From a virus, in the IMG/VR virus record IMGVR_UViG_3300043449_000945, positions 1 through 26,736 of that record: a DNA stretch of 26,736 nt. One strand, written 5' to 3'. How positions within the stretch are numbered: position 1 is the first letter of the stretch; each line of letters starts with the position of its first letter. Positions 3,178 to 23,012 of this stretch are shown in pieces. Under the pieces are notes generated by a model, which searched no databases, was not told the DNA's origin, and saw only the letters and a program-made list of their open reading frames with translations. A program made the translations under genes and the position numbers.

Positions 3178-4032
3178 TTAAGTTCCCCATTCGTTTTTGT
3201 AAAGCGGAACTTGAATTCGTGGACTGAATCTATATCCAATATCACGAGCATAATCCGCAACTTGTCTTTCATTCATTTCGTAAACTAAGTTAACGCCGCC
3301 GACCGGCATTAAGTAAACTGGAATATCAATACCGGCTTCCTTGTATTTTCCAAGAGCTATTTGTGCATCTAATGCATCTTGTTCTGTAGCAATAACAAAT
3401 TTAAAATAGCTTCTATGCTTTGGTAGCGTAAGATATTCTTTAACTACCTCGGGTTTAATAGCATCTTCCATCTTTTCACCACTACAAGGTAGTTTAGCAC
3501 TAATGGAAAATACAATTTCAAGATTAAACCCTTCTGCAAGCATACGAAGATACTCTTTAAGATCTGATTCTAACGGTTGAGTACCATTTGTTTCAAATGT
3601 AAGATAACGTAAGTTCATTTCGCGATTGTTAATCTCAATGAATAGATCACGATACATCTTCTGCCAGCCTAACAACGGCTCGCCGCCAGTAATAATTAAA
3701 TGCTTTTCACCAAATTTTCTATCAGGCAGTAATTCTTGGAAGCGATCTACAATTTCTTTAACAGTCATTGTTGGTGAAAGATGCTTAAATCTAGGATCCC
3801 AAGATGCATAACTGTCACAACCTGTGGGCACTAAAGGCAAATCTTTATAATCTTTATATTCCTTTGCCTTTGCTGCAATAGTATCACGTTCGGTTGAAAC
3901 TTGCCCACGCGGCATGCCGAACGAACTGCATGTAAAATTACATCCAAATGTTCTTAAGAATATGCTAGGAGTACCAACATACAATCCTTCGCCTTGTAAA
4001 CTATAAAAAATCTCAGATACCTTAATCTTCAT
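3178..4032 (-). CDS. queE: QueE-like radical SAM 7-carboxy-7-deazaguanine synthase
   Basis: QueE converts 6-carboxytetrahydropterin to 7-carboxy-7-deazaguanine with a [4Fe-4S] cluster and SAM. The 284-residue product begins with the QueE signature SEIFYSLQGEG (residues 6-16), then a cluster region GCNFTC (Cys31, Cys35), the SAM-binding TGGEPLL (115-121), ETNGT (147-151), FSISAK (175-180) and a C-terminal YLMPVGG (240-246). The usual CxxxCxxC is not complete: Cys35 is followed by SSFGMPRG, and the next cysteine is Cys72 in TGCDSYASW, so the third cluster ligand is either Cys72 or absent. The start at 4032 has an AGGA upstream and overlaps the homing endonuclease gene by 11 bases. It belongs with folE, the queD-like gene and dpdA. 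Confidence 0.88.
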   Translation of the reverse strand: MKIKVSEIFYSLQGEGLYVGTPSIFLRTFGCNFTCSSFGMPRGQVSTERDTIAAKAKEYKDYKDLPLVPTGCDSYASWDPRFKHLSPTMTVKEIVDRFQELLPDRKFGEKHLIITGGEPLLGWQKMYRDLFIEINNREMNLRYLTFETNGTQPLESDLKEYLRMLAEGFNLEIVFSISAKLPCSGEKMEDAIKPEVVKEYLTLPKHRSYFKFVIATEQDALDAQIALGKYKEAGIDIPVYLMPVGGVNLVYEMNERQVADYARDIGYRFSPRIQVPLYKNEWGT

Positions 4033-4715: not shown

Positions 4716-5699
4716 TTAAGATAATTTGTTTTTGCAATTATTGCCGTGCCATCGATTATAATTTGCAGTAACACATTCCTTACCACAATGTTCGCAAACA
4801 ACAGTACGGCGTTTAATACCAGTCATTCTTTCACTCATTTTCTTTTTCCAATGTTCGGGTTTTGGCATTCGACACCCCTTAGATCTACCCTCAGCAATTC
4901 TTGCTTTAGCATCTTCAGATAATTCTCTATTACGAATAGAATTTAACATTTTTTCGATAGTTTCTGGAGAATATATCTCTTCCCATTTCTTACCTCTTTT
5001 AGCTGCTGCTGTTTTTTCAACAGTAGCAGGATCTCTTTTAACCCCTATACGTTTATCAGCGGCAGCTCTTCTTTTAGCTTTTATATCTGGCCGTTGATTT
5101 ATAAGAGCTCGTTTCTTTAATATTTTTTCTCTAAATTCAAGATCTTCCCATATTTTTTTTGCGATTGTACTTCTCAGTTGACGTTGTTCTTCTGTTAAAT
5201 TTAATTTTTTGCCCCATGAAGGATTTTCTGGTCCTCTTTTAAAAAGTTTCTTTTTGCTTTTTTCTCCAATAAGTCGTTTAGTTTCGTCAGAATGCTTTTT
5301 TCCAAAAAAATGATTTTTTTCTCCCTTTTGAGTTTCGCTAAGTAGTTTAGAATACATAATTCTAAACGACTCATAGATTTTGCTATTAATCTTATAGTTA
5401 TGATCATCTGTGACATGCATTTGTCTTATAAACGTATTAAAAGCATAAGCCATTTTGTGTCCGTACACTCCGGAAAAATTCATTTTCCAAAGGAGTGCAT
5501 GAGCAATATAATGTTCTCTAGCAGTAAGCACGGCAATATTTGATTTATCATTACTACCACCAAATGATCTAGGAACAATATGATGTTTTTCTTTGTAGGC
5601 GTCCTTAGGTAATTTTCTATTTAATGCTTTAGTGATTAATTCTTCATACCACCTACTATATTTCGATTCTATATAAGGGAACTCCCAATCAATAACCAT
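4716..5699 (-). CDS. HNH homing endonuclease with NUMOD3-like motifs
   Basis: A 327-residue free-standing homing endonuclease. The HNH core lies at residues 38-67: KHHIVPRSFGG (His39/His40), SNIAVL (Asn54) and REHYIAH (His63, His67). It is followed by NUMOD3-type DNA-binding repeats (GEKNHFFGKKHSDETK around 126-141, and ENPSWGKK around 158-165), a long basic helical region, and a C-terminal zinc-finger-like CEHCGKEC...H...C. The frame is open further upstream into the phosphoribosyltransferase gene, but the ATG at 5699, four bases past that gene's stop at 5704, is chosen because translation reads naturally from there. Such genes spread by cutting alleles that lack them. It occupies the junction between the phosphoribosyltransferase and the second endonuclease. 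Confidence 0.85.
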   Translation of the reverse strand: MVIDWEFPYIESKYSRWYEELITKALNRKLPKDAYKEKHHIVPRSFGGSNDKSNIAVLTAREHYIAHALLWKMNFSGVYGHKMAYAFNTFIRQMHVTDDHNYKINSKIYESFRIMYSKLLSETQKGEKNHFFGKKHSDETKRLIGEKSKKKLFKRGPENPSWGKKLNLTEEQRQLRSTIAKKIWEDLEFREKILKKRALINQRPDIKAKRRAAADKRIGVKRDPATVEKTAAAKRGKKWEEIYSPETIEKMLNSIRNRELSEDAKARIAEGRSKGCRMPKPEHWKKKMSERMTGIKRRTVVCEHCGKECVTANYNRWHGNNCKNKLS

Positions 5700-5703
5700 A
5701 AGT

Positions 5704-6222
5704 TTAGTCGTACCAAAACTCTTCCCAAGGGAACACAATCCATTCATCATTTTCTGCTTTATTAATTTCAGCAGAGTAGTAATCAACAGTTTGTTCACTG
5801 GATAAGTTATTGACTAATACAGCAATACGAACATTACTGCCCCAAATTTCCTTCCACATTTCGTGATCCGGAAGACAAGAGCTTTCCCAGTCTTGCTTAA
5901 TCCAAGCAATAGTAGCTCCGGTGTCGTTAATATCGTCAATAACTAGAATATTCTTTTTCTGCTCAAGTGAATCAGGATATCCAAAAGCATCTTCGCTCAT
6001 CCAAGCGTTCGTTTCAGGACCTGTGCCGTCGCCGTCACGCAAGCGGACGTCAAGGCTATAAGTTTTAATGCCTAGCATCTTACCAAGCATAATAGCAGGA
6101 AGATCGCCTCCGCTGTGAATTCCTACAATATAATCCGGCCTCCAGTTGTCACGAAACAACTTTACAGCAATATTTGTTACATGCTTTTCAACATCTTTCC
6201 AAGTAAGATAAGTTTTAGTCAT
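5704..6222 (-). CDS. phosphoribosyltransferase (purine PRTase-like)
   Basis: A 172-residue type I phosphoribosyltransferase. The PRPP-binding loop NILVIDDINDTGATI is at residues 91-105 (paired aspartates 96-97, TGAT), and the N-terminal YIVGIHSGGDLPAIML (31-46) matches the conserved 'GI.rGG' strand and loop. The C-terminal hood (IVFPWEEFW) resembles xanthine/guanine phosphoribosyltransferases (Gpt/Xpt-like), which make GMP or XMP from base and PRPP. The start is set at 6222, 11 codons inside the longest frame, because similarity begins at MTKTYLTW; it overlaps the upstream stop by 8 bases. A purine-salvage enzyme inside a 7-deazaguanine cluster may act on GTP supply or on a modified base, but the substrate cannot be read from sequence. 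Confidence 0.82.
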   Translation of the reverse strand: MTKTYLTWKDVEKHVTNIAVKLFRDNWRPDYIVGIHSGGDLPAIMLGKMLGIKTYSLDVRLRDGDGTGPETNAWMSEDAFGYPDSLEQKKNILVIDDINDTGATIAWIKQDWESSCLPDHEMWKEIWGSNVRIAVLVNNLSSEQTVDYYSAEINKAENDEWIVFPWEEFWYD

Positions 6223-6908: not shown

Positions 6909-7601
6909 TTATTTCATCCTTGATACTATATTAAAGAATTCCTGCTTCAAGTTAGGATCTTCACGAAACTTTCCACGCATAATAGAAGTAGTCATGTCGC
7001 TCTCGTGTTCGCGAACACCACGATGTGTCATACACAGATGTTCTGCCTGAACTAGAACAGCAACACCGTCTGCTTCGGTTACCTTTTCAATAGCATCGGC
7101 AATCTGCACAGTCATTTCTTCCTGAATCTGCGGACGACTAGTGATCCAATCTGTAATACGATTGAACTTACTTAGACCGATAACATTCTTACCAGGAAAC
7201 ACGCCGATGTAAGCCTTACCTTGAATAGCTTGGAAGTGATGAGCACAAGTTGAACGTATTGAAATAGGACCAGTTACATATAACTCGTCATATGCATTAG
7301 CATTTGGAAACGCTGTAATCTTTGGAACAGGATTGTAACGTCCAGAGAACACCTCGTTAATAAACATCTTAGCAACACGACGAGCAGTATCATGTGTGTT
7401 ATGATCATTTTCGATATCAATGACAAGACTTTCGAGAACCTTCTTCATATTCTCTTCGACTTCGTCTATTAATAGTTCATATTCTTCAGGAAGAATATGC
7501 TCACTTATGTTGTCATTACAAAAAAATCGAACTCCACGCTCTTTCAAGCGACTAGCAATTAAAGCTGAAGTTCCGTTACACGTACAATTAGTCATAGTCA
7601 T
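6909..7601 (-). CDS. folE: GTP cyclohydrolase I (FolE)
   Basis: Converts GTP to 7,8-dihydroneopterin triphosphate, the first step both of folate and of 7-deazaguanine synthesis. The 230-residue product shows DTARRVAKMF (71-80), the zinc site STCAHHF (Cys119, His122) with the second cysteine in HLCMTHRGV (Cys190), GKAYIGVFPGKNVIGLSKFNR (128-148), and the QIQEEMTVQIADAI strand-helix (158-171). The family usually has CEHH; here Ala replaces Glu. The last ~30 residues (SDMTTSIMRGKFRED) match the family end. The start at 7601 has a GGAG (7609-7612) seven bases upstream; a second ATG two codons in is possible. Here it most likely feeds the queD-like, queE and dpdA steps rather than folate. Confidence 0.95.
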   Translation of the reverse strand: MTMTNCTCNGTSALIASRLKERGVRFFCNDNISEHILPEEYELLIDEVEENMKKVLESLVIDIENDHNTHDTARRVAKMFINEVFSGRYNPVPKITAFPNANAYDELYVTGPISIRSTCAHHFQAIQGKAYIGVFPGKNVIGLSKFNRITDWITSRPQIQEEMTVQIADAIEKVTEADGVAVLVQAEHLCMTHRGVREHESDMTTSIMRGKFREDPNLKQEFFNIVSRMK

Positions 7602-9883: not shown

Positions 9884-10071
9884 TACTGTGTCCTTAGCTG
9901 ATGTTCGATTCGATCAATTTCTTCCTTAAGATGAAGCTTTTCTAACTTCAACTTATTAATCTTAAGATCGTCTACATAGTGATTGTATGCTTCATTGATC
10001 GTTTTGTCAAGTGCATCGTGTTTAGCTTTAATCATCTTGTAATGCGATTCGAGCTTATCCATTGTAATCAT
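9883..10071 (-). CDS. DUF465/YdcH-like small coiled-coil protein, 62 aa
   Basis: Almost entirely helical: KLESHYKMIKAKHDALDKTI, then INKLKLEKLHLKEEIDRIEHQL. The pattern 'H..Ld..I ... LK..KL.LKeeI' resembles the YdcH/DUF465 family of short antiparallel coiled-coil proteins, whose function is unclear. The start at 10071 forms an ATGA overlap with the dpdA stop (10068); an internal ATG three codons later is possible. It ends overlapping the next gene by one base. Confidence 0.7.
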   Translation of the reverse strand: MITMDKLESHYKMIKAKHDALDKTINEAYNHYVDDLKINKLKLEKLHLKEEIDRIEHQLRTQ

Positions 10072-11609
10072 TCTACTGACTCCTCTAGTTTTTCAAGATT
10101 AGTTTCATCTAGCCCACTATCGTCTATATGGTGCTTAACCTCTACTTCAACTTCCTTAAACTTATCATTGTAAGCAGTTGAAGAGTTAACAGTTTTCTTT
10201 CCAGTAGCACCTCGTGTTCCGATAATACTGATCCAGAACTTGTTATAATCTTCAATAATTTTTTCTGCCTTTTCTCTATCGTCTGTTTCAAAGATTCTAT
10301 CAACAACATCTCTGAAATAAATTCGATCATATCCTTCAATGAATAACATATTTGGAATTACTTTCGAATCATATTGCCTATTTGCTTCTTGAACAGAATT
10401 AATATGCATCCACACATTATGACCCATTTGAATAGCGTAGGAAAAACTGTCCCATGATGTTCTTCCTTCTTTGCCTATCTTATTTAGATCGCCTGGCTTA
10501 TAAATGCATACATCTTTGACTAAAGTTTTTGTGCTTATTGGACTATCTTCAAAGTTTTTAAAGATCTTATCTTGTAATGTTGCATCTCTAAACAGTCGAG
10601 TGTCTGTTGCATACTTTTTGTTATCAACAGATGGGACCATTCGATAAGTCCACTTTTTATGATGTGGAGTTTCGGTTTGAATGTAAATCTGTCCGTTAGC
10701 AGTAGCAAGGAATGGACTAGCGCAGTCGAAGCTAATAGTAAACTGCTCGTTATGATATTTTCTAACAGCTCGTTGTATGTCAGTTAGCAAACAAGCCCAC
10801 TCAAGTTTACTGGTACCTAGAAAGTGCATCCAGTCCTGTTTGCCTTTCTCAATTAATCCATCAAAACGTAATGCAACAAGGCGACGTAATACAAGATGAA
10901 CATCACACATATTTTGTCCTCCCATCGACCACCCATTAAAGTGTTCATTAGGATAGTGCTTTGGATCACTATACTTCTTCATTCTATCATACCAGTCATC
11001 TGCTTCAGTATGATTTTCGCCCTGTAACACGTTTAAGAATTTACAGTTACCATTTCTATTACGAATGAAGTAGTCGTTGTTAATGTATGTTGCATTAACA
11101 GCTTCTTGATACGTGTTAATGCCTGTCTTTTCTCTACCATTTGGACTTCTAGCGACCCATGCTGGAATATCAAGAATCATTCCATAGTCCATAAGACTAT
11201 CCATCCAGGCAAGAACCTGTTCACGCTTCTTTTTAGCCTTAGGACAGTTAGGATCTTTCCAATCGCCCTCCCACACACCTTTACCAATCTGAAAGCCTCC
11301 ACTATCCCCAACAACAATACTATTGCCATTGCGTGGACGATTGCGGAACATATCTTCCTTCTCACTAAACTTGTTTAAGTCTAGTTCAGCATGACCTGCA
11401 GAATACAAGCACCACTTATAATAAAAGTATCCTGCTTCTGGATCTAGAAAGTTGAGTCCTTCGATACCATTTGTAAATCCTGCAGGAATACGTGCAGGAT
11501 CAACATAGGGACCAAAACGCTGTTTACCTATAAAAGTGGAATAAAAAGAACTAACTGCTGGTAAAAATACAGCATAGTCCTTTTGTGTTTTTGTTAAATT
11601 TTCATTCAT
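10068..11609 (-). CDS. dpdA: DpdA-like DNA guanine transglycosylase (TGT superfamily)
   Basis: A 513-residue protein with the core motifs of tRNA-guanine transglycosylase in order: VVGDSGGFQIG (99-109, general acid Asp102), LNVLQGENH (192-200), NGWSMGGQN (225-233), MHFLGTSKLEW (261-271) and SFDCASP (293-299, candidate nucleophile Asp295). The zinc-binding CxCxxC...H of true TGT enzymes is not seen. That combination, together with neighbouring queE/folE/queD-like genes in a phage, points to DpdA, which swaps guanine in DNA for a 7-deazaguanine. The C-terminal ~150 residues are phage-specific and charged. The start makes an ATGA overlap with a 32-residue membrane micro-ORF, and the stop an ATGA overlap with the next gene. 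A TGT-like fold is near certain; DNA as substrate is well supported by context. Confidence 0.88.
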   Translation of the reverse strand: MNENLTKTQKDYAVFLPAVSSFYSTFIGKQRFGPYVDPARIPAGFTNGIEGLNFLDPEAGYFYYKWCLYSAGHAELDLNKFSEKEDMFRNRPRNGNSIVVGDSGGFQIGKGVWEGDWKDPNCPKAKKKREQVLAWMDSLMDYGMILDIPAWVARSPNGREKTGINTYQEAVNATYINNDYFIRNRNGNCKFLNVLQGENHTEADDWYDRMKKYSDPKHYPNEHFNGWSMGGQNMCDVHLVLRRLVALRFDGLIEKGKQDWMHFLGTSKLEWACLLTDIQRAVRKYHNEQFTISFDCASPFLATANGQIYIQTETPHHKKWTYRMVPSVDNKKYATDTRLFRDATLQDKIFKNFEDSPISTKTLVKDVCIYKPGDLNKIGKEGRTSWDSFSYAIQMGHNVWMHINSVQEANRQYDSKVIPNMLFIEGYDRIYFRDVVDRIFETDDREKAEKIIEDYNKFWISIIGTRGATGKKTVNSSTAYNDKFKEVEVEVKHHIDDSGLDETNLEKLEESVE

Positions 11610-16467: not shown

Positions 16468-17046
16468 TCAATTCATCTCAGATTCAAGATTCCAGGTTAA
16501 ACTAGAACCTAAATCTACAAGTTTAACTCGATCTTCAAAATCATATCCCATAGTAACCACTTTATCGCCTAGCATATAGTCAGCAGGGCTTGCTCCCCAT
16601 TTTTCTGTCCAATCTATAAGTTTTTTAGCACCACTTGGTTTTAAAATGTAGGCATGAGCACCTTCGTGCCAGTTACCTGTAGCAGCAGGTTTAGATACCC
16701 TAAATCCATGTAGCTTAATTACGTCAGTATTCTTTAGGGACCAAAGTGGTCCTTTGCAAAAAAGAACATCGCTTTCAAAAATAGCAATAGGCTCGTTCAG
16801 TTTTAAACAGCGTTTCCAAAGTTCATAATGACTTGCAAAACATCCTTTAACTCCTGGACGTAAAAATTGGTCTGCTCCCTTTTGGTATCGCTGATCGATT
16901 TTAAAAGGAAACGGCGTAGTTAGACCATTATATCCAGCAAAGAACTCAATCGGTTCCCATTTATTCCGTATAGCACTTTCTTTGAGAATAGGAAGGTGCT
17001 CTTCTGTCTTTTTATGCCCAGGCAAATAAATTACAAATGATTTCAT
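16468..17046 (-). CDS. family 25 (LPS-type) glycosyltransferase
   Basis: A 192-residue GT25-like enzyme; bacterial relatives transfer sugars such as galactose onto lipooligosaccharide. Motifs: the N-terminal FVIYLPGHKKTEEHL, GCFASHYELWKRC (68-80, the family 'G.i.cf.SH...w' block), AIFESDVLF (88-96, an acidic metal site in the place of the usual E-D-D), GAHAYILKPSGAKKLI (129-144) and PADYMLGD (154-161). The family core is intact though short. The gene lies on the opposite strand to the glycan cassette starting 46 bases away and has its own late-type box (17069-17076). It could glycosylate host surface, a virion protein or DNA; the substrate cannot be told. Confidence 0.82.
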   Translation of the reverse strand: MKSFVIYLPGHKKTEEHLPILKESAIRNKWEPIEFFAGYNGLTTPFPFKIDQRYQKGADQFLRPGVKGCFASHYELWKRCLKLNEPIAIFESDVLFCKGPLWSLKNTDVIKLHGFRVSKPAATGNWHEGAHAYILKPSGAKKLIDWTEKWGASPADYMLGDKVVTMGYDFEDRVKLVDLGSSLTWNLESEMN

Positions 17047-17068
17047 GATAGGTACTTTTTAAAAGAAT

Positions 17069-17076
17069 ATTTATCA
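17069..17076 (-). promoter_or_regulatory. T4-like late promoter box GATAAATA
   Basis: Minus-strand GATAAATAT lies 22 bases before the ATG of the family-25 glycosyltransferase, in the 45-base divergent gap between the two strands. On the plus strand the same gap holds only a CTAAATAT box (17081-17088), three bases from the first cassette ATG, and no good sigma70 hexamers. Confidence 0.55.
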
Positions 17077-17091
17077 TACACTAAATATCTC

Positions 17092-17856
17092 ATGATTTCA
17101 ATCGTAATGGCTTATTACAACAGAATTTCGCTGCTCAGATTTACTTTGAAGACTTTTTTACTATCTAATGCATCTGATTACGAAATTATAATAGTTGATG
17201 ATTTTAGTGATTCAGCACATGATCCGAATTTGTTGAAAGATGAGTTTCCAACACTACCTATTCGAATTATTAAAATGAGTGACTTAGGAGAAAAGACTTG
17301 GTGTAATCCTTGTATTCCTTATAATGTTGGATTTAGAGCCAGTGTAGGTGACAAAATTATTATCCAAAATCCAGAATGTTGCCACTTAGGTGATGTAATA
17401 AGTTATACAAGTGAAAATTTAACAGATGAAAATTATTTGAGTTATCATTGTTATGCTTGTAAAGAATCTGATCTCGATATCTTACATAACGGCGGCATAA
17501 TAGACATGCCAAATGAGAAAGACGAATGGTTTTGGTCGGGATGGTACAATCATAAAGAATATAGACCAGCATCGTTTCACTTCACAACTGCTATTACAAG
17601 AAATAATTTAAAAAAGTTAAACGGATTTGATGAGAGATTTGCTCATGGAATCGGATACGATGACAATGAATTTATTATTCGTGTTAAGCGTCTAGGGCTT
17701 AAGATTGATTATGTTGAAGATCCAATGGTAGTGCATCAGTTTCATGCAAAAATTAATTCTTTTACACCTGATAAATTAAACAACGAAACTTTTTACAAGG
17801 AAACAAAAGGTAACAAAAGTTTGATTAGAGTTGAAAATCAAGCAAATATTGTTTGA
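17092..17856 (+). CDS. family 2 glycosyltransferase
   Basis: A 254-residue GT-A/GT2 enzyme. SIVMAYYNRISLLRFTLKTF (3-22) opens the nucleotide-binding fold and IIIVDDFSD (32-40) is the first acidic site. The position of the usual DXD is occupied by QNPECCH (92-98), which lacks the standard aspartates. The acceptor-side motif LNGFDERFAHGIGYDDNEF (176-194) is well preserved and includes the likely catalytic Asp pair. It is the first gene of the plus-strand glycan cassette. No Shine-Dalgarno is evident. It is probably cytoplasmic; donor and acceptor are unknown. Confidence 0.87.
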   Translation: MISIVMAYYNRISLLRFTLKTFLLSNASDYEIIIVDDFSDSAHDPNLLKDEFPTLPIRIIKMSDLGEKTWCNPCIPYNVGFRASVGDKIIIQNPECCHLGDVISYTSENLTDENYLSYHCYACKESDLDILHNGGIIDMPNEKDEWFWSGWYNHKEYRPASFHFTTAITRNNLKKLNGFDERFAHGIGYDDNEFIIRVKRLGLKIDYVEDPMVVHQFHAKINSFTPDKLNNETFYKETKGNKSLIRVENQANIV

Positions 17857-17887
17857 AAACATAACTAAATGGTTTTATAATCACTAG

Positions 17888-18979
17888 ATGAGTAAAAAAT
17901 TAAAAATTCTAACAATTCTTGGTACACGCCCGGAAATTATAAGACTATCTGTTATAATTCCTAAATTAGATCAACTGTGTGATCATCATGTTTTACATAC
18001 AGGACAGAACTATGATGAAAAATTAAATGATGTTTTCTTTAAAGAGCTAGGTCTAAGAGCACCTAACTATGTAATTGATAGTAAATCAAATACGTTTTCT
18101 GAACAACTAGGCAAGATTTTAGTTGGTGTAGAACAGTACCTAACAAGTTTTCAGCCAGATCGTGTGCTAATTTTAGGTGACACTAATTCTGGATTAGCTG
18201 CAATCATTTGTGAGCGTATGGGAATTCCAGTCTATCACATGGAAGCAGGAAACAGATGTTATGACAACTTAGTTCCAGAAGAGAAAAACCGTAGAATTAT
18301 AGATTCAATTTCAACTGTGAATTTGCCTTACACAAATTTAAGCAGAGAGAATTTGCTTAGAGAAGGAATTGCAAACAATAGAATTTTTGTAACTGGCAAT
18401 CCTATTAACGAAGTTCTAAATGTTTATCAAAGCTCAATAGAAAAATCAATAATCTTAGATCAGTTAGGGCTTGAGGAAAACAAATATATTATTGCTACAG
18501 CACATAGAGCAGAAAATGTCGATAATGATGAAAGACTAAAAAATATTTTTGAGAGTTTTGTTGAGATTTCAAATGAATACAAGATAGTTTTTAGCTGCCA
18601 TCCCCGAACTAAACAAAAGTTAGAAAAGTTCGGTATTGATACATCTAATCCAAATATTATTATAGTTGAACCTCTTGGGTTTTTTGATTTTGTGCAACTA
18701 GAGTTTCACAGTCGTATGGCGATCACAGACTCCGGAACTGTACAAGAAGAAATGTGTATATTTGGAATACCTACAATAACAATCAGAGCAACTACCGAAC
18801 GTCCTGAAACTGTGTGGTGCGGATCAAATATCGTTAGCGGGTTAAATAAAGAGAGAATAATACACTGTTATAATCGAATGAAAAATAACAATGTAGTTTG
18901 GGAAAGACCTGCAGGGTATACTAAAGATAATGTGTCTGACGTAGTAGTTAATATCTTGCTTTCAAATTCGGAGAAATAA
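17888..18979 (+). CDS. UDP-N-acetylglucosamine 2-epimerase family (WecB/FnlC/WbvD-like)
   Basis: A 363-residue non-hydrolysing 2-epimerase. All family motifs are present: GTRPE (12-16), HTGQNYD (37-43), ILGDTNS (95-101), HMEAGNR (117-123), PEEKNRRIID (130-139), ATAHRAEN (203-210), CHPRT (237-241), DSGTVQEE (281-288, usually DSGGxQEE) and TTERPE (302-307). Alone this could be WecB (UDP-ManNAc formation). Together with the dehydratase at 21217 and the reductase at 22200 it fits the last step of UDP-L-FucNAc or UDP-L-QuiNAc synthesis (FnlC or WbvD). A 31-base gap separates it from the GT2 gene; no strong ribosome site is seen. Its stop directly abuts the GTG start of the next gene. Confidence 0.93.
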   Translation: MSKKLKILTILGTRPEIIRLSVIIPKLDQLCDHHVLHTGQNYDEKLNDVFFKELGLRAPNYVIDSKSNTFSEQLGKILVGVEQYLTSFQPDRVLILGDTNSGLAAIICERMGIPVYHMEAGNRCYDNLVPEEKNRRIIDSISTVNLPYTNLSRENLLREGIANNRIFVTGNPINEVLNVYQSSIEKSIILDQLGLEENKYIIATAHRAENVDNDERLKNIFESFVEISNEYKIVFSCHPRTKQKLEKFGIDTSNPNIIIVEPLGFFDFVQLEFHSRMAITDSGTVQEEMCIFGIPTITIRATTERPETVWCGSNIVSGLNKERIIHCYNRMKNNNVVWERPAGYTKDNVSDVVVNILLSNSEK

Positions 18980-19633
18980 GTGAACTTAAATCAGTATAAA
19001 GAGTTATTTGAGCAATATAAGTTGCTGTCAGGTGAAAACTATTACGAAGATGGTAAAGAACAGTTCTTTGAAAAATATGGTGAACCGAGAGGTGGCTCTG
19101 CTCAATTAATATGTGAGTTTCGAACTCTACTAGAATATTATATCGACTTACAACCTAAAACAATATTAGAAATAGGAACATATCACGGTGGAACTCTTTG
19201 GTACTGGGTTAAATATGCTCCGCTTAATGCGTTAATAATTAGCATCGACGTAAATCATGAACAATGTCATTTATGGAATGAAATAGAAGCTATGAGACCT
19301 GATATTACGTTAGTAAAGATCACAGCAAACTCTGATGATCCTAAAACTCTAGAAAGAGTCATGGGATTAACTGACGAATTAGATTTTGTTTTTATAGACG
19401 GATATCATCATTTTCCAGTAGTGAGAACAGATTGGGAAATGTATGGAAAGAAGTCTAAAGTGTGTGCATTTCATGATATAGGGTCAGGATTTGATTTTGA
19501 TAATCCGCAAGATATTAGAGTATTGTGGAATGAAATTACGCAAGAATATACAAATACCTTATCAATGATTAGAAGAGAACCAACTGATCTTTGTTATGGA
19601 ATAGGAATAGTTGAACTCGGAGAAAATAAATGA
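18980..19633 (+). CDS. class I SAM-dependent methyltransferase
   Basis: A 217-residue Rossmann methyltransferase of the Methyltransf_24/cephalosporin-hydroxylase-like group. TILEIGTYHGGTLWYW (61-76) is the SAM-binding glycine loop, SIDVN (88-92) holds the ribose-binding Asp, and LDFVFIDGYHHFPVVRTDW (134-152) is the typical metal-linked 'fiDG.H.y..v..D' segment, followed by FHDIGSG (164-170). The start is GTG, directly after the preceding stop, with a GGAG just upstream (18970-18973); the end overlaps the next gene by ATGA. In a glycan cassette it probably O-methylates a sugar. Confidence 0.85.
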   Translation: MNLNQYKELFEQYKLLSGENYYEDGKEQFFEKYGEPRGGSAQLICEFRTLLEYYIDLQPKTILEIGTYHGGTLWYWVKYAPLNALIISIDVNHEQCHLWNEIEAMRPDITLVKITANSDDPKTLERVMGLTDELDFVFIDGYHHFPVVRTDWEMYGKKSKVCAFHDIGSGFDFDNPQDIRVLWNEITQEYTNTLSMIRREPTDLCYGIGIVELGENK

Positions 19634-20475
19634 CAATATATCTAGCACCTGAGGTTGCAAGCGGATTAGGAGAAGATACTTTTTGGACTTGGTTTAAGCG
19701 TGAAGTTCCGGAGTCACAGTGGTATGATGCCTCAATACCTATTACTGACAATGATGTTATTTTAAGATACTCTACTACAGGGTCATCATTACATCCTAAG
19801 CAGACAATTTGTTTGCTATGGGAGCTTTATCCTGAAATGAATGCCATGCTGAACACTAATGAATGGGATTGGAGAGTTAATGTCATTAATGAATCAATTA
19901 GAACTTCCAGAAAATGCACAGTCGCTAGTGAAATCATGCTTCCTTATTATGATCATGCTGATACTGTAGATGTGTTACCTCTTGCACTTGATACAGAGGT
20001 ATTCAAGCCACTTAACAACAAAGAAGAGTTAAGAAAGAAGTATGATCTCCCACTTGATAAGACTATCGGCGTTTGGGGTGGAACGACTCATTTAATGAAG
20101 GGCTTTGATAGATTTTTAGAATATAAGGAAGCTAATCCTAATATTCATTGGATTGTAATATGGAAGTGGTGGCAGGAAGCACAACCTGTTGACGGTTGCA
20201 GTAATTATGTTCAGATACCGCAAACACAAATGAACGAATTGTTTAATTGTGGTGACTTCTTTTTATCCACAAGCCGCTTACGCCCATACTTTATGACAGA
20301 GTGGGAAGCTCTAGCAGCAAATATGAAGTTTGTGTTTACTCATCCTATAGAAAAGGATTTTGTTCCAGGTAAGAACCCAAGGCAGCAAGTACTAGACTTG
20401 GGTTGGGATCGTATAACTGCAAAGCAAACATGGTTAGATTATATTAATAATTTTATTGCAGAGAATAATGCATGA
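19630..20475 (+). CDS. GT4-like (GT-B) glycosyltransferase
   Basis: A 281-residue glycosyltransferase with a short N-terminal domain (TIYLAPEVASGLGEDTFWTW, then ICLLWELYPEMN) and a C-terminal Rossmann donor domain: DVLPLALDTEVFKPL (the hinge 'p.GvD...F.p'), KTIGVWGGTTHLMKGFDRFL, NYVQIPQTQMNELFNCGDFF and RPYFMTEWEALA, where the usual 'E.fG...lEAmA' is reduced to a Glu in TEWEALAAN. It may be a trimmed GT4 enzyme. It is ATGA-coupled to the genes on both sides. No signal peptide or membrane anchor is seen. Substrate unknown. Confidence 0.8.
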   Translation: MTIYLAPEVASGLGEDTFWTWFKREVPESQWYDASIPITDNDVILRYSTTGSSLHPKQTICLLWELYPEMNAMLNTNEWDWRVNVINESIRTSRKCTVASEIMLPYYDHADTVDVLPLALDTEVFKPLNNKEELRKKYDLPLDKTIGVWGGTTHLMKGFDRFLEYKEANPNIHWIVIWKWWQEAQPVDGCSNYVQIPQTQMNELFNCGDFFLSTSRLRPYFMTEWEALAANMKFVFTHPIEKDFVPGKNPRQQVLDLGWDRITAKQTWLDYINNFIAENNA

Positions 20476-21224
20476 TTACAATCGTTTGTTTGATTTATCG
20501 ATCAACAAAATATGCTAAGGCGGTGTATGAGAACTTACACAAATACACTCCTATGCTTTCTACAGGTGAAGCAGAATTACTCTTTGTAGCTAATGATGCT
20601 ACTCCTGAAGTTTTAAAGTTCCTAAAAGACAACAAATATCCACATATTGTTAATAACAATCCGATTTATACAGATGAACAATTATTAGAGAGAGGATATT
20701 ATCCTCCAGAGTATATTGGCAGAGTATATAGAGGATATAATCAGGGTGTTAAAGCCGCTAAAGGTGAAATTGTAGTTCTCATAAACAGTGATAATTTATT
20801 TGCACCAAATTGGTTAGAAAATTTATGTAAGCATATGGAGAGACGGTTAGTTGTCTGCTCACGATTAGTTGAGCGTAGCCATCCTGTGCATGGTGTATTT
20901 TGTATGGCATTACATGCTGATTTTGGTAGTCATCCAGACAATTTTAGAGAAAAAGAATTTATCGAATATGCTGAAAAGATAGCAACTGAATATGCAGGTG
21001 AAACTACTCCAGGTGGAGCATTTATGCCTTGCATGATTTATAAAGATGTATTTGAAAAAGTAGGCGGATATCCAGAAGGAAATAAGTCTCCATTAGGCGA
21101 TAGCAGTATGCAGACCGGTGATAAGGTATTATTTGAAAAGTTCTTTTTCACCGAAGGTATGGGGCAACTTACAATTTGTGATTCATTATCATATCATTTT
21201 AAAGAAGGCGAGCGAGATGAGTAG
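20472..21224 (+). CDS. family 2 glycosyltransferase
   Basis: A 250-residue GT-A enzyme. TIVCLIYRSTKYAKAVYENL (3-22) opens the fold; LLFVANDATPE (36-46) takes the place of the first acidic motif; GYNQGVKAAKGEIVVLINSD (88-107) followed by NLFAPNWLENL is the classical GT2 donor-site region with Asn-Ser-Asp as the DXD equivalent; TPGGAFMPCMIYKDVFEKVGG is the acceptor-side segment and leads into a conserved 'D..l..k' region (MQTGDKVLFEKFF). It overlaps the upstream gene by ATGA and the dehydratase gene by 8 bases. Confidence 0.87.
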   Translation: MITIVCLIYRSTKYAKAVYENLHKYTPMLSTGEAELLFVANDATPEVLKFLKDNKYPHIVNNNPIYTDEQLLERGYYPPEYIGRVYRGYNQGVKAAKGEIVVLINSDNLFAPNWLENLCKHMERRLVVCSRLVERSHPVHGVFCMALHADFGSHPDNFREKEFIEYAEKIATEYAGETTPGGAFMPCMIYKDVFEKVGGYPEGNKSPLGDSSMQTGDKVLFEKFFFTEGMGQLTICDSLSYHFKEGERDE

Positions 21225-22203
21225 TATATTTGACGGTGCTAGAATTTTAATCACCGGAGGAACCGGATCTTGGGGACAAACAATGACCCAGATGCTATTA
21301 GACGAACACGATGTAAAAGAAATTATTTGTTTCTCTAGAGGAGAACTACAGCAAGTTCTCATGCAACGTAAGTTCAAAAGTAATAAACTAAAATTTGTTA
21401 TTGGTGATGTTAGAGATTATGAAGCAGTAAAAGTAGCCACACGTGGTGTTGATTATATATTCCATATGGCTGCTCTTAAACATGTTCCGATTTGTGAGGA
21501 TCATCCTCAAGAAGCAATTAAAACTAATATTATTGGAACAAATAATATAGTTAATGCTGCTATTGAAAACAAGGTAAAGAAGGTTATCGATGTGTCAACT
21601 GACAAAGCGGTTGAACCTAATAACTTGTATGGTATGACTAAGTCAGTGGGCGAAAAAGTAATTATTCAAGGAAACCATTTATCGGACTATACAAAGTTTG
21701 TTTGTATTCGTGGTGGTAACGTAATGGGTTCTAATGGGTCTGTTATACCGTTGTTTATAGAGCAAATGAAAAAAGGTGAACCTATATCAATTACAGACAA
21801 TAGAATGACTCGTTTCTTTTTAACATTGAGAGAAGCGATTGAGTTAGTTATTAAAGCAGCTGAAGCAAGCCACGGTGGTGAAACGTTTGTTATGAATATG
21901 CCGTCTTGTTATATTTTAGATGTTGCTGAAGTATTAATGGAAACCTATGGAAAAGTAGATGTTGATATAATGGGTGTTCGTCCAGGTGAAAAAATGGATG
22001 AAATGTTGATCTCAGAGCACGAAGCACCTCTAGCTTATTGCTATGATAAAGATTATTACGTAATACTTCCGTCTGGAAATTCTGAGTTACATGAACTATA
22101 TATTGATTTAGAAAAGTTTCCTCGTCCAGAATTTTCTTCAAAGACATTCCTTATCAATAAGGAAAAAATACGTGAGATGTTAAGAAAAGGAAATTTCATA
22201 TGA
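21217..22203 (+). CDS. UDP-GlcNAc 4,6-dehydratase/5-epimerase family (CapD/FnlA/WbvB-like)
   Basis: A 328-residue extended SDR. ILITGGTGSWGQTMTQMLL (10-28) is the NAD(P)-binding loop. VIGDVRDYEAV and YIFHMAALKHVPICEDHP (80-97) are hallmarks of the CapD/PseB/FnlA dehydratases. VSTDKAVEPNNLYGMTK (126-142) carries the active-site Asp129/Lys130 and Tyr138...Lys142. IRGGNVMGSNGSVIPLF and TDNRMTRFFLTL are typical substrate-side segments, and GVRPGEKMDEML closes the domain. The frame is open 33 codons further upstream within the GT2 gene, but the ATG at 21217 fits the family start and has AAGAAGG just upstream. With the 2-epimerase and the reductase it suggests UDP-6-deoxy-L-HexNAc synthesis; PseB-like activity is the alternative. 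Confidence 0.9.
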   Translation: MSSIFDGARILITGGTGSWGQTMTQMLLDEHDVKEIICFSRGELQQVLMQRKFKSNKLKFVIGDVRDYEAVKVATRGVDYIFHMAALKHVPICEDHPQEAIKTNIIGTNNIVNAAIENKVKKVIDVSTDKAVEPNNLYGMTKSVGEKVIIQGNHLSDYTKFVCIRGGNVMGSNGSVIPLFIEQMKKGEPISITDNRMTRFFLTLREAIELVIKAAEASHGGETFVMNMPSCYILDVAEVLMETYGKVDVDIMGVRPGEKMDEMLISEHEAPLAYCYDKDYYVILPSGNSELHELYIDLEKFPRPEFSSKTFLINKEKIREMLRKGNFI

Positions 22204-23012
22204 AAATTGTAGTCCTTGGTGCAAATGGTATGGCAGGTCATGTTGTTACAAAATATTTAAAGCAGCAGGGACACGATGTTACTGAAGTTACTAGAAATCA
22301 ACTCGATGTTGAAAATCAAATTCGAGTTGAAAACTTTTTTACTATTTTAAATCCTGATATTGATTTTGTTATTAATTGTATTGGATTGCTTGTTAAGGAT
22401 AGTATTGATCGTCCTGATAGAGCAATTATGATTAATTCTTGGTTCCCTCATTATATGGAACAACAATTATTAAACAGAAAAACAAAAATAATCCATTTAT
22501 CGACAGATTGTGTTTTTAACGGAGCAGACGGAAGTTATCTTGAAACTGATGTACACACTGAAACAAACTTTTATGGAAAATCGAAATCTTTAGGTGAGAT
22601 AAACAATAATAAAGACATAACTTTTAGAATGTCAATTATAGGACCCGAATTAAAGAACGGTACAGGACTGTTTAATTGGTTTGTAAAAAATAGTCCAGAA
22701 GAAGTAGATGGTTGGGTCAATGCTTGGTGGAATGGTATTACTACATTAGAATTAGCAAAATGTATTAACAAATATATAAACGATCCAACAATTACAGGAG
22801 TTTATCATTTAGTTAACAACTATAATGAAATTAACAAGTACGAATTATTAGTATTAATTAATGAAATATTTTCGTTGAATAAAATGATAAATCCAATTCG
22901 TGGGCCAAAACATATTAATAAGGTTTTAGTAAACACAAGACAAGAAATAGATTTTGAAATACCTAATTATCGTATTATGCTTACTGAACTAAAGGATTTT
23001 ATAGTAACTTAA
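22200..23012 (+). CDS. RmlD-like SDR nucleotide-sugar reductase (WbvR-like)
   Basis: A 270-residue SDR of the dTDP-4-dehydrorhamnose-reductase group. IVVLGANGMAGHVVTKYL (3-20) is the dinucleotide loop, VINCIGLLVKDSIDRPDRAI (58-77) and IHLSTDCVFNGADGSYLE (98-115) are family signatures, and YGKSKSLGE (125-133) gives the catalytic Tyr and Lys. RmlD acts on dTDP-4-keto-rhamnose, but no RmlA/B/C genes are present. Beside a CapD-type dehydratase and a 2-epimerase the better parallel is WbvR, which reduces the 4-keto intermediate towards UDP-L-RhaNAc before WbvD makes UDP-L-QuiNAc. The assignment to that pathway is inference. The gene starts with an ATGA overlap and its end overlaps the convergent gene by 14 bases. 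Confidence 0.87.
   Translation: MKIVVLGANGMAGHVVTKYLKQQGHDVTEVTRNQLDVENQIRVENFFTILNPDIDFVINCIGLLVKDSIDRPDRAIMINSWFPHYMEQQLLNRKTKIIHLSTDCVFNGADGSYLETDVHTETNFYGKSKSLGEINNNKDITFRMSIIGPELKNGTGLFNWFVKNSPEEVDGWVNAWWNGITTLELAKCINKYINDPTITGVYHLVNNYNEINKYELLVLINEIFSLNKMINPIRGPKHINKVLVNTRQEIDFEIPNYRIMLTELKDFIVT

Follow-up and report, generated by a model that had tools for sequence, protein, structure and literature searches.

A seven-gene phage operon with a predicted pathway to UDP-L-RhaNAc and UDP-L-QuiNAc and a possible role in virion glycosylation

A 26.7 kb virus contig (IMG/VR record IMGVR_UViG_3300043449_000945, positions 1 to 26,736; its full length is called the window here) contains seven open reading frames (ORFs) on the + strand at 17092-23012 that break into a run of − strand genes. 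Our analysis modestly favors the interpretation that these genes form an operon that makes its own amino-sugar donor and attaches the sugar to an acceptor, the best guess being a virion protein. We have good confidence in the donor pathway, predicted to lead to UDP-N-acetyl-L-rhamnosamine (UDP-L-RhaNAc) and then to UDP-N-acetyl-L-quinovosamine (UDP-L-QuiNAc), and we regard the virion as acceptor as about an even call. The seven genes, with the names used below, are as follows:

17092..17856, + strand: GT1, GT-A glycosyltransferase, 254 amino acids (aa); Pfam Glycos_transf_2 and Glyco_transf_7C
17888..18979, + strand: EPI, non-hydrolysing UDP-HexNAc 2-epimerase of the CapG/QnlB/WbvD kind, 363 aa; Pfam Epimerase_2 (309 bits)
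18980..19633, + strand: MT, S-adenosylmethionine-dependent sugar O-methyltransferase-like protein, 217 aa, GTG start; Pfam RMNT_CmcI / Methyltransf_24
19630..20475, + strand: GTx, probable GT-B (GT4-like) glycosyltransferase, 281 aa; relative in contig L099
20472..21224, + strand: GT2, GT-A glycosyltransferase, 250 aa; Pfam Glycos_transf_2; homologue in L099
21217..22203, + strand: DEH, inverting 4,6-dehydratase with the motif STDKAVEPNNLYGMTK; Pfam Polysacc_synt_2 (320 bits)
22200..23012, + strand: RED, RmlD-like 4-reductase of the QnlA/WbvR/Mg535 type, 270 aa; Pfam RmlD_sub_bind (87 bits)

The initial annotation had described a seven-gene cassette on the strand opposite to its neighbors, which was borne out by the ORF coordinates, the − strand location of the flanking genes, and a change in the sign of GC skew across 17092-23012. 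Its recognition of a 2-epimerase, a CapD-type dehydratase, and an RmlD-type reductase likewise agrees with the Pfam matches. Starts and stops overlap at MT/GTx, GTx/GT2, GT2/DEH, and DEH/RED, joining five genes, and because of these overlaps the seven genes are read as one operon. The DEH start was placed by alignment of homologues at ATG 21217, which overlaps the preceding stop; the listed ORF start at 21118 is too early. The gene set of the window is also present in L099, and GT1-EPI-DEH-RED was found in many further phage contigs; therefore, the cassette is more than a chance assembly.

In the proposed pathway, DEH would convert UDP-GlcNAc to UDP-4-keto-6-deoxy-L-IdoNAc by 4,6-dehydration with inversion of C5, RED would epimerise C3 by means of Cys104 and reduce C4 to give UDP-L-RhaNAc, and EPI would invert C2 to yield UDP-L-QuiNAc. 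With these donors and host UDP-sugars, the glycosyltransferases and the methyltransferase would assemble a short methylated glycan, which would be attached to a cytosolic acceptor, most plausibly a phage virion protein. The benefit would probably be protection or an altered particle surface. The enzyme classes, catalytic residues, gene linkage, and absence of membrane machinery in the sampled phages were read from sequence; we infer which products are made and in what order, as well as the acceptor and the benefit.

RED has the residues Thr102-Tyr125-Lys129, the T...YxxxK arrangement of RmlD-like short-chain dehydrogenases/reductases (SDR), and in an alignment of the RED family the Tyr and Lys were present in 79 of 79 rows and the Thr in 78. 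The RmlD motif STDYVF appears as STDCVF in RED, and the resulting Cys104 aligned with Cys109 of Escherichia coli GDP-L-fucose synthase (fcl, taken from L238; NZ_CP028744.1). A Cys was found at this position in 74 of 74 RED family members, and a Tyr in two RmlD-like PDB chains. In GDP-fucose synthase this Cys acts as the base in C-3 epimerisation (PMC12362431), and the catalytic Cys is conserved in Megavirus Mg535, a bifunctional 3-epimerase/4-reductase (PMC9614988, a review). Because Cys104 lies at the C-3 epimerase position, the full route is conceivable without a separate 3-epimerase. RED is 35-36% identical to the E. coli O-antigen reductase encoded between the dehydratase and the 2-epimerase, the position that is named QnlA (PMC5560731), and the WbjC/FnlB model NF047837 was not among the profile matches of RED. 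The sequence thus places RED in the QnlA/WbvR/Mg535 kind, the name QnlA resting on gene position. RED relatives with the Cys were also seen in Bacteroidota (L193-L201), where neither an EPI nor a convincing DEH was seen within flanks of about 1.5 kb.

EPI matched Staphylococcus aureus CapG at 1.4e-92 (314 bits), in contrast to 2.4e-40 (142 bits) for E. coli WecB. It carries the signature HMEAGNRC, which is common to the EPI proteins of bacterial triads with small variants, and it is 43% identical to the protein at the QnlB position in the E. coli O-antigen locus. By sequence, EPI is therefore of the CapG/QnlB/WbvD kind rather than like E. coli WecB. The best NCBIfam model of EPI was wecB (290 bits, above cut-off); a plain WecB was nevertheless ruled out by the comparison of 1.4e-92 for CapG with 2.4e-40 for E. 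coli WecB.

Against solved structures, DEH scored nearly equally with WbjB (271 bits), CapE (255 bits), and Helicobacter pylori PseB (252 bits). The initial annotation had suggested that profile searches would distinguish among FnlA, WbvB, and PseB, but DEH reached neither model: it scored 271.6 bits with the curated FnlA model (cut-off 730) and 336 bits with PseB, its best NCBIfam model (cut-off 407.75). FnlA, CapE, and WbjB have Met instead of the SDR catalytic Tyr (STDKAxYPINAMG), whereas the window DEH keeps the Tyr, as Tyr138, and all phage rows have Tyr. In a tree that included eight above-cut-off PseB proteins and a 14-row FnlA/CapE clade among others, DEH grouped with phage sequences and with proteins of Paenibacillus, Priestia, and Rummeliibacillus in a distinct 100/100 clade, and the PseB clade (100/100) excluded it. 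These comparisons indicate that DEH belongs to a separate, unnamed Tyr-type dehydratase clade. The FnlA/WbvB type was rejected on the bit-score cut-off, the Tyr in place of Met, and the tree, and PseB on the cut-off, the tree, and the cassette's lack of an aminotransferase (the PseC partner). The route proposed in the initial annotation, with the three enzymes acting together towards a UDP-6-deoxy-L-HexNAc, is well supported, including its RmlD-like QnlA/WbvR-type reductase and the lack of FnlB/CapF; its WbvB-type dehydratase is not.

An alternative is that the three enzymes do not cooperate, with a PseB-like DEH and an EPI that makes UDP-ManNAc each feeding separate host pathways. PseB and wecB are indeed the best NCBIfam models of DEH and EPI, below and above cut-off, respectively. 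However, DEH lies outside the PseB clade with no aminotransferase nearby, EPI resembles CapG far more closely than it does E. coli WecB, and DEH and RED are constantly adjacent, so that we consider this alternative, which the initial annotation had posed as plain WecB plus PseB, very improbable.

Two other groups of dehydratases appeared in the course of the analysis. Bacterial triads L181, L184, L186-L188, L190, and L202 have a dehydratase motif of STDKACKPxNxMG or near it and are sister to FnlA/CapE; in these, RED is adjacent to the dehydratase and EPI is often adjacent. Part of L214-L230 consists of inverting-dehydratase-like proteins, mostly with a TMG motif, that form a clade of their own (100/99), separate from both PseB and FnlA.

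The closest viral precedent is Megavirus chilensis, in which Mg534-Mg535 make UDP-L-RhaNAc in vitro and Mg536 is a predicted 2-epimerase; Megavirus virions contain L-QuiNAc, RhaNAc, and 4-O-methyl-RhaNAc (PMC9614988, PMC10117803). Mg534-Mg535-Mg536 resemble the phage genes in being virus-encoded, in comprising the three enzyme classes with a Tyr-type inverting dehydratase, a 270-aa RmlD-like reductase with the catalytic Cys, and a WbvD-type 2-epimerase, and in that some relatives (CTV1) lack the 2-epimerase, as does one phage clade. In contrast, Megavirus is an amoeba virus, its gene order is DEH-RED-EPI, and Mg534, a single long branch in the tree, appears to branch apart from the 100/100 clade of phage DEH. 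In L163 (LR745206.1, 427014-445805), from a 635 kb uncultured phage, relatives of DEH and RED lie about 5 kb apart in one sugar island, and Mg534 is the best solved relative of its DEH. When IMG/VR was searched with Mg534 for triads of giant viruses, only L165 came back, in an unrelated context.

Among bacteria, the FnlA-QnlA-QnlB and WbvB-WbvR-WbvD systems (E. coli, Proteus, and Vibrio cholerae O37) share with the phage the kinds of reductase and 2-epimerase, the adjacency of the genes, and the predicted product UDP-L-QuiNAc. They differ in having Met for Tyr in a dehydratase of its own clade and in being tied to lipid-linked O-antigen assembly. The E. coli O-antigen loci are ordered DEH-RED-EPI, and the window DEH, RED, and EPI are 47%, 36%, and 43% identical to their proteins. 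The EPI-DEH-RED order of the phage recurs, with a Tyr-type DEH of the same 100/100 clade, in Priestia plasmids and Paenibacillus genomes (L161, L162, L166, L167, L175, and L178), although these are cellular or plasmid loci with other transferases. The RED of those triads groups with some Met-type triad RED rather than with the phage RED, which does not join the Priestia/Paenibacillus RED to the exclusion of the Met-type ones. Therefore, the three genes need not have come together from such a source.

The scans of IMG/VR gave dozens of contigs, and distinct proteins were counted since many contigs may be near-copies across assemblies. Matches named 'Staphylococcus phage SA 1298/1306 Kay' and 'Listeria phage' were left out because they look like bacterial DNA filed as phage. 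It was found that RED adjoins DEH in 49 of 49 cases with enough downstream sequence, from a total of 51 distinct phage DEH proteins, and that EPI is upstream of DEH in 25 of the 40 with enough upstream sequence (24 in one count, to which L098 adds an EPI). Many of the islands are next to uvsW-like and uvsX-like genes or sit between the two, and six records contain the gp23 capsid gene; on these grounds the carriers are regarded as T4-like phages. L164, OR849864, and OR844989, filed as Staphylococcus phages, contain a capsule locus running from capE to capG; in the trees their DEH and EPI are identical to CapE and CapG, so they are probably bacterial contigs.

The phage DEH proteins without EPI have SSDK in place of STDK, and three contigs of this group, 162-210 kb in length, contain no EPI anywhere. 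These DEH rows make up a single nested clade (100/100), and so one loss of EPI is probable. By analogy with the giant virus CTV1, for which a stop at UDP-L-RhaNAc was proposed (PMC10117803), the pathway of this clade should end at UDP-L-RhaNAc.

Turning to the enzymes that would use the donor, GT1 is 55% identical to its L001 homologue and precedes the trio in most phages that have EPI. The earlier count of three glycosyltransferases and a methyltransferase held for the two Glycos_transf_2 proteins and the methyltransferase, which have Pfam matches; the third transferase, GTx (19630-20475), matched no Pfam family above cut-off. GTx is 63% identical to L099:3982-4836, which has a sub-threshold Glycos_transf_1 (PF00534) match (E 0.21). 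There was no sequence match to GTx in PDB, and its AlphaFold model was too poor to use (predicted local distance difference test score, pLDDT, 44). A GT-B (GT4-like) glycosyltransferase is the probable assignment.

The case for a cytosolic acceptor comes from the membrane steps of glycan assembly. Wzx (PF01943) and the initiating transferase (PF02397) were absent from 50 phage records, whereas 13 and 9, respectively, of the 14 control genomes have them, and GtrA was absent from 32 phage records. Neither the seven window proteins nor the ORFs of 14 islands showed a transmembrane-like stretch, with E. coli WzxC, WcaD, WcaJ, and Wzc as positive controls. These results also set the cassette apart from Gtr-type seroconversion cassettes. 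With soluble transferases, its own donor, and no membrane step, the acceptor is likely to be cytosolic; we rank a virion protein first, host lipid-linked intermediates second, and DNA third.

It may instead be that the same donor serves transferases acting on host lipid-linked or lipopolysaccharide (LPS) intermediates at the cytosolic membrane face, with host Wzx/Wzy/WaaL finishing a product that changes the surface and excludes other phages. Surface modification against rivals is how cyanophage sugar clusters have been interpreted in print (PMC7824862), the bacterial triad serves O-antigens (PMC5560731), and the transferases are diverse between phages. The P-SSM2-type cyanophage clusters are, like the window phage, T4-like islands of sugar enzymes and glycosyltransferases, but their nucleotide-sugar epimerases share only about 28% identity with DEH, and a relative of RED was not found in them. 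Against a host-surface role, none of the sampled phages had a gene for an initiating transferase, a flippase, GtrA, or another membrane glycan protein, and in several phages late-type promoters precede the run, which is late for superinfection exclusion. We consider such a role unlikely, though one to be taken seriously. Thus, of the two purposes in the initial annotation, a cytosolic acceptor such as the virion gained the better support and envelope remodelling, which lacks a lipid-carrier or membrane step in the phages sampled, the lesser.

Of 36 phages, 10 have the T4-type late motif (NATAAATA) ahead of the gene that opens the run, whereas it stands before none of 233 internal genes; this fits late expression. 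In the window, the motif stands before the neighboring gene:

16468..17046, − strand: GT25 glycosyltransferase by Pfam, a neighbor divergent from the cassette
about 17068-17075, − strand: T4-type late motif GATAAATA, just upstream of the GT25 gene

GT25-like genes belong to several other phage islands. The exact late promoter TATAAATA was not found in the window. ATAAATA sites are at 1195, 4683, 17068, 25100, and 26418, only on the − strand, and five of six are about 20 nt before − strand genes; the sequence is rarer than chance in the window overall, though placed as T4-type late promoters are. Sigma-70 and terminator scans of the window did no better than shuffles.

T-even phages glucosylate their DNA (PMC9614988), and the window contig has QueE- and FolE-like 7-deazaguanine genes, so the sugar might be attached to modified phage DNA to guard it against restriction. 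However, the GT2-type and GT25-type transferases and methyltransferase in variable islands resemble oligosaccharide assembly, and among the window genes none for base glycosylation was recognised (the relatives were not searched for DNA-glucosyltransferase families). A DNA mark therefore seems improbable to us.

Several points weigh against glycosylation of a virion protein with the proposed sugar. No assayed enzyme of the DEH clade was found, and the C5 and C3 stereochemistry is transferred from other systems. The RED Cys occurs in the Bacteroidota relatives too and thus extends beyond L-sugar triads. A glycan that the phage transferases start could be exported by host enzymes, and the cytosolic acceptor could be DNA instead of protein. 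Furthermore, the phage records are mostly fragments, and no late motif precedes the window's own cassette.

More broadly, we propose tentatively, and at somewhat less than even chances, that a widespread T4-like lineage coats its virions with L-quinovosamine or L-rhamnosamine glycans by way of the unnamed Tyr-type dehydratase, that one clade dropped EPI and switched sugar, and that this parallels the Megavirinae. The pathway is known in bacteria and Megavirinae; here it gains new carriers, with a separate dehydratase clade and a widespread phage module. In the open-access literature we found no paper on the EPI-DEH-RED trio in bacteriophages, most subscription papers being outside the scope of the search. 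If correct, the proposal would tell which sugar chemistry a large set of uncultured T4-like phages uses, tie it to a biochemically worked-out giant-virus precedent, and make a definite, testable claim on the sugar, its three enzymes, and the acceptor. Sampled islands without membrane steps would question the usual view of phage sugar islands as host-LPS modifiers, and the EPI-less clade would offer a natural contrast between L-RhaNAc and L-QuiNAc producers.

Elsewhere in the window, a B-family DNA polymerase is encoded on the − strand; among phage proteins, it is closest to the polymerases of jumbo and T4-like phages (43-51%). The QueE-like radical SAM protein (3178-4032) and GTP cyclohydrolase I (6909-7601), also on the − strand, suggest that 7-deazaguanine is synthesised and that the phage DNA is perhaps modified. 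The ORF at 10068-11609 (513 aa) had no family match and by eye looks like a tRNA-guanine transglycosylase relative. An HNH endonuclease with a NUMOD3 motif, likely a homing endonuclease, is encoded at 4716-5798 on the − strand.

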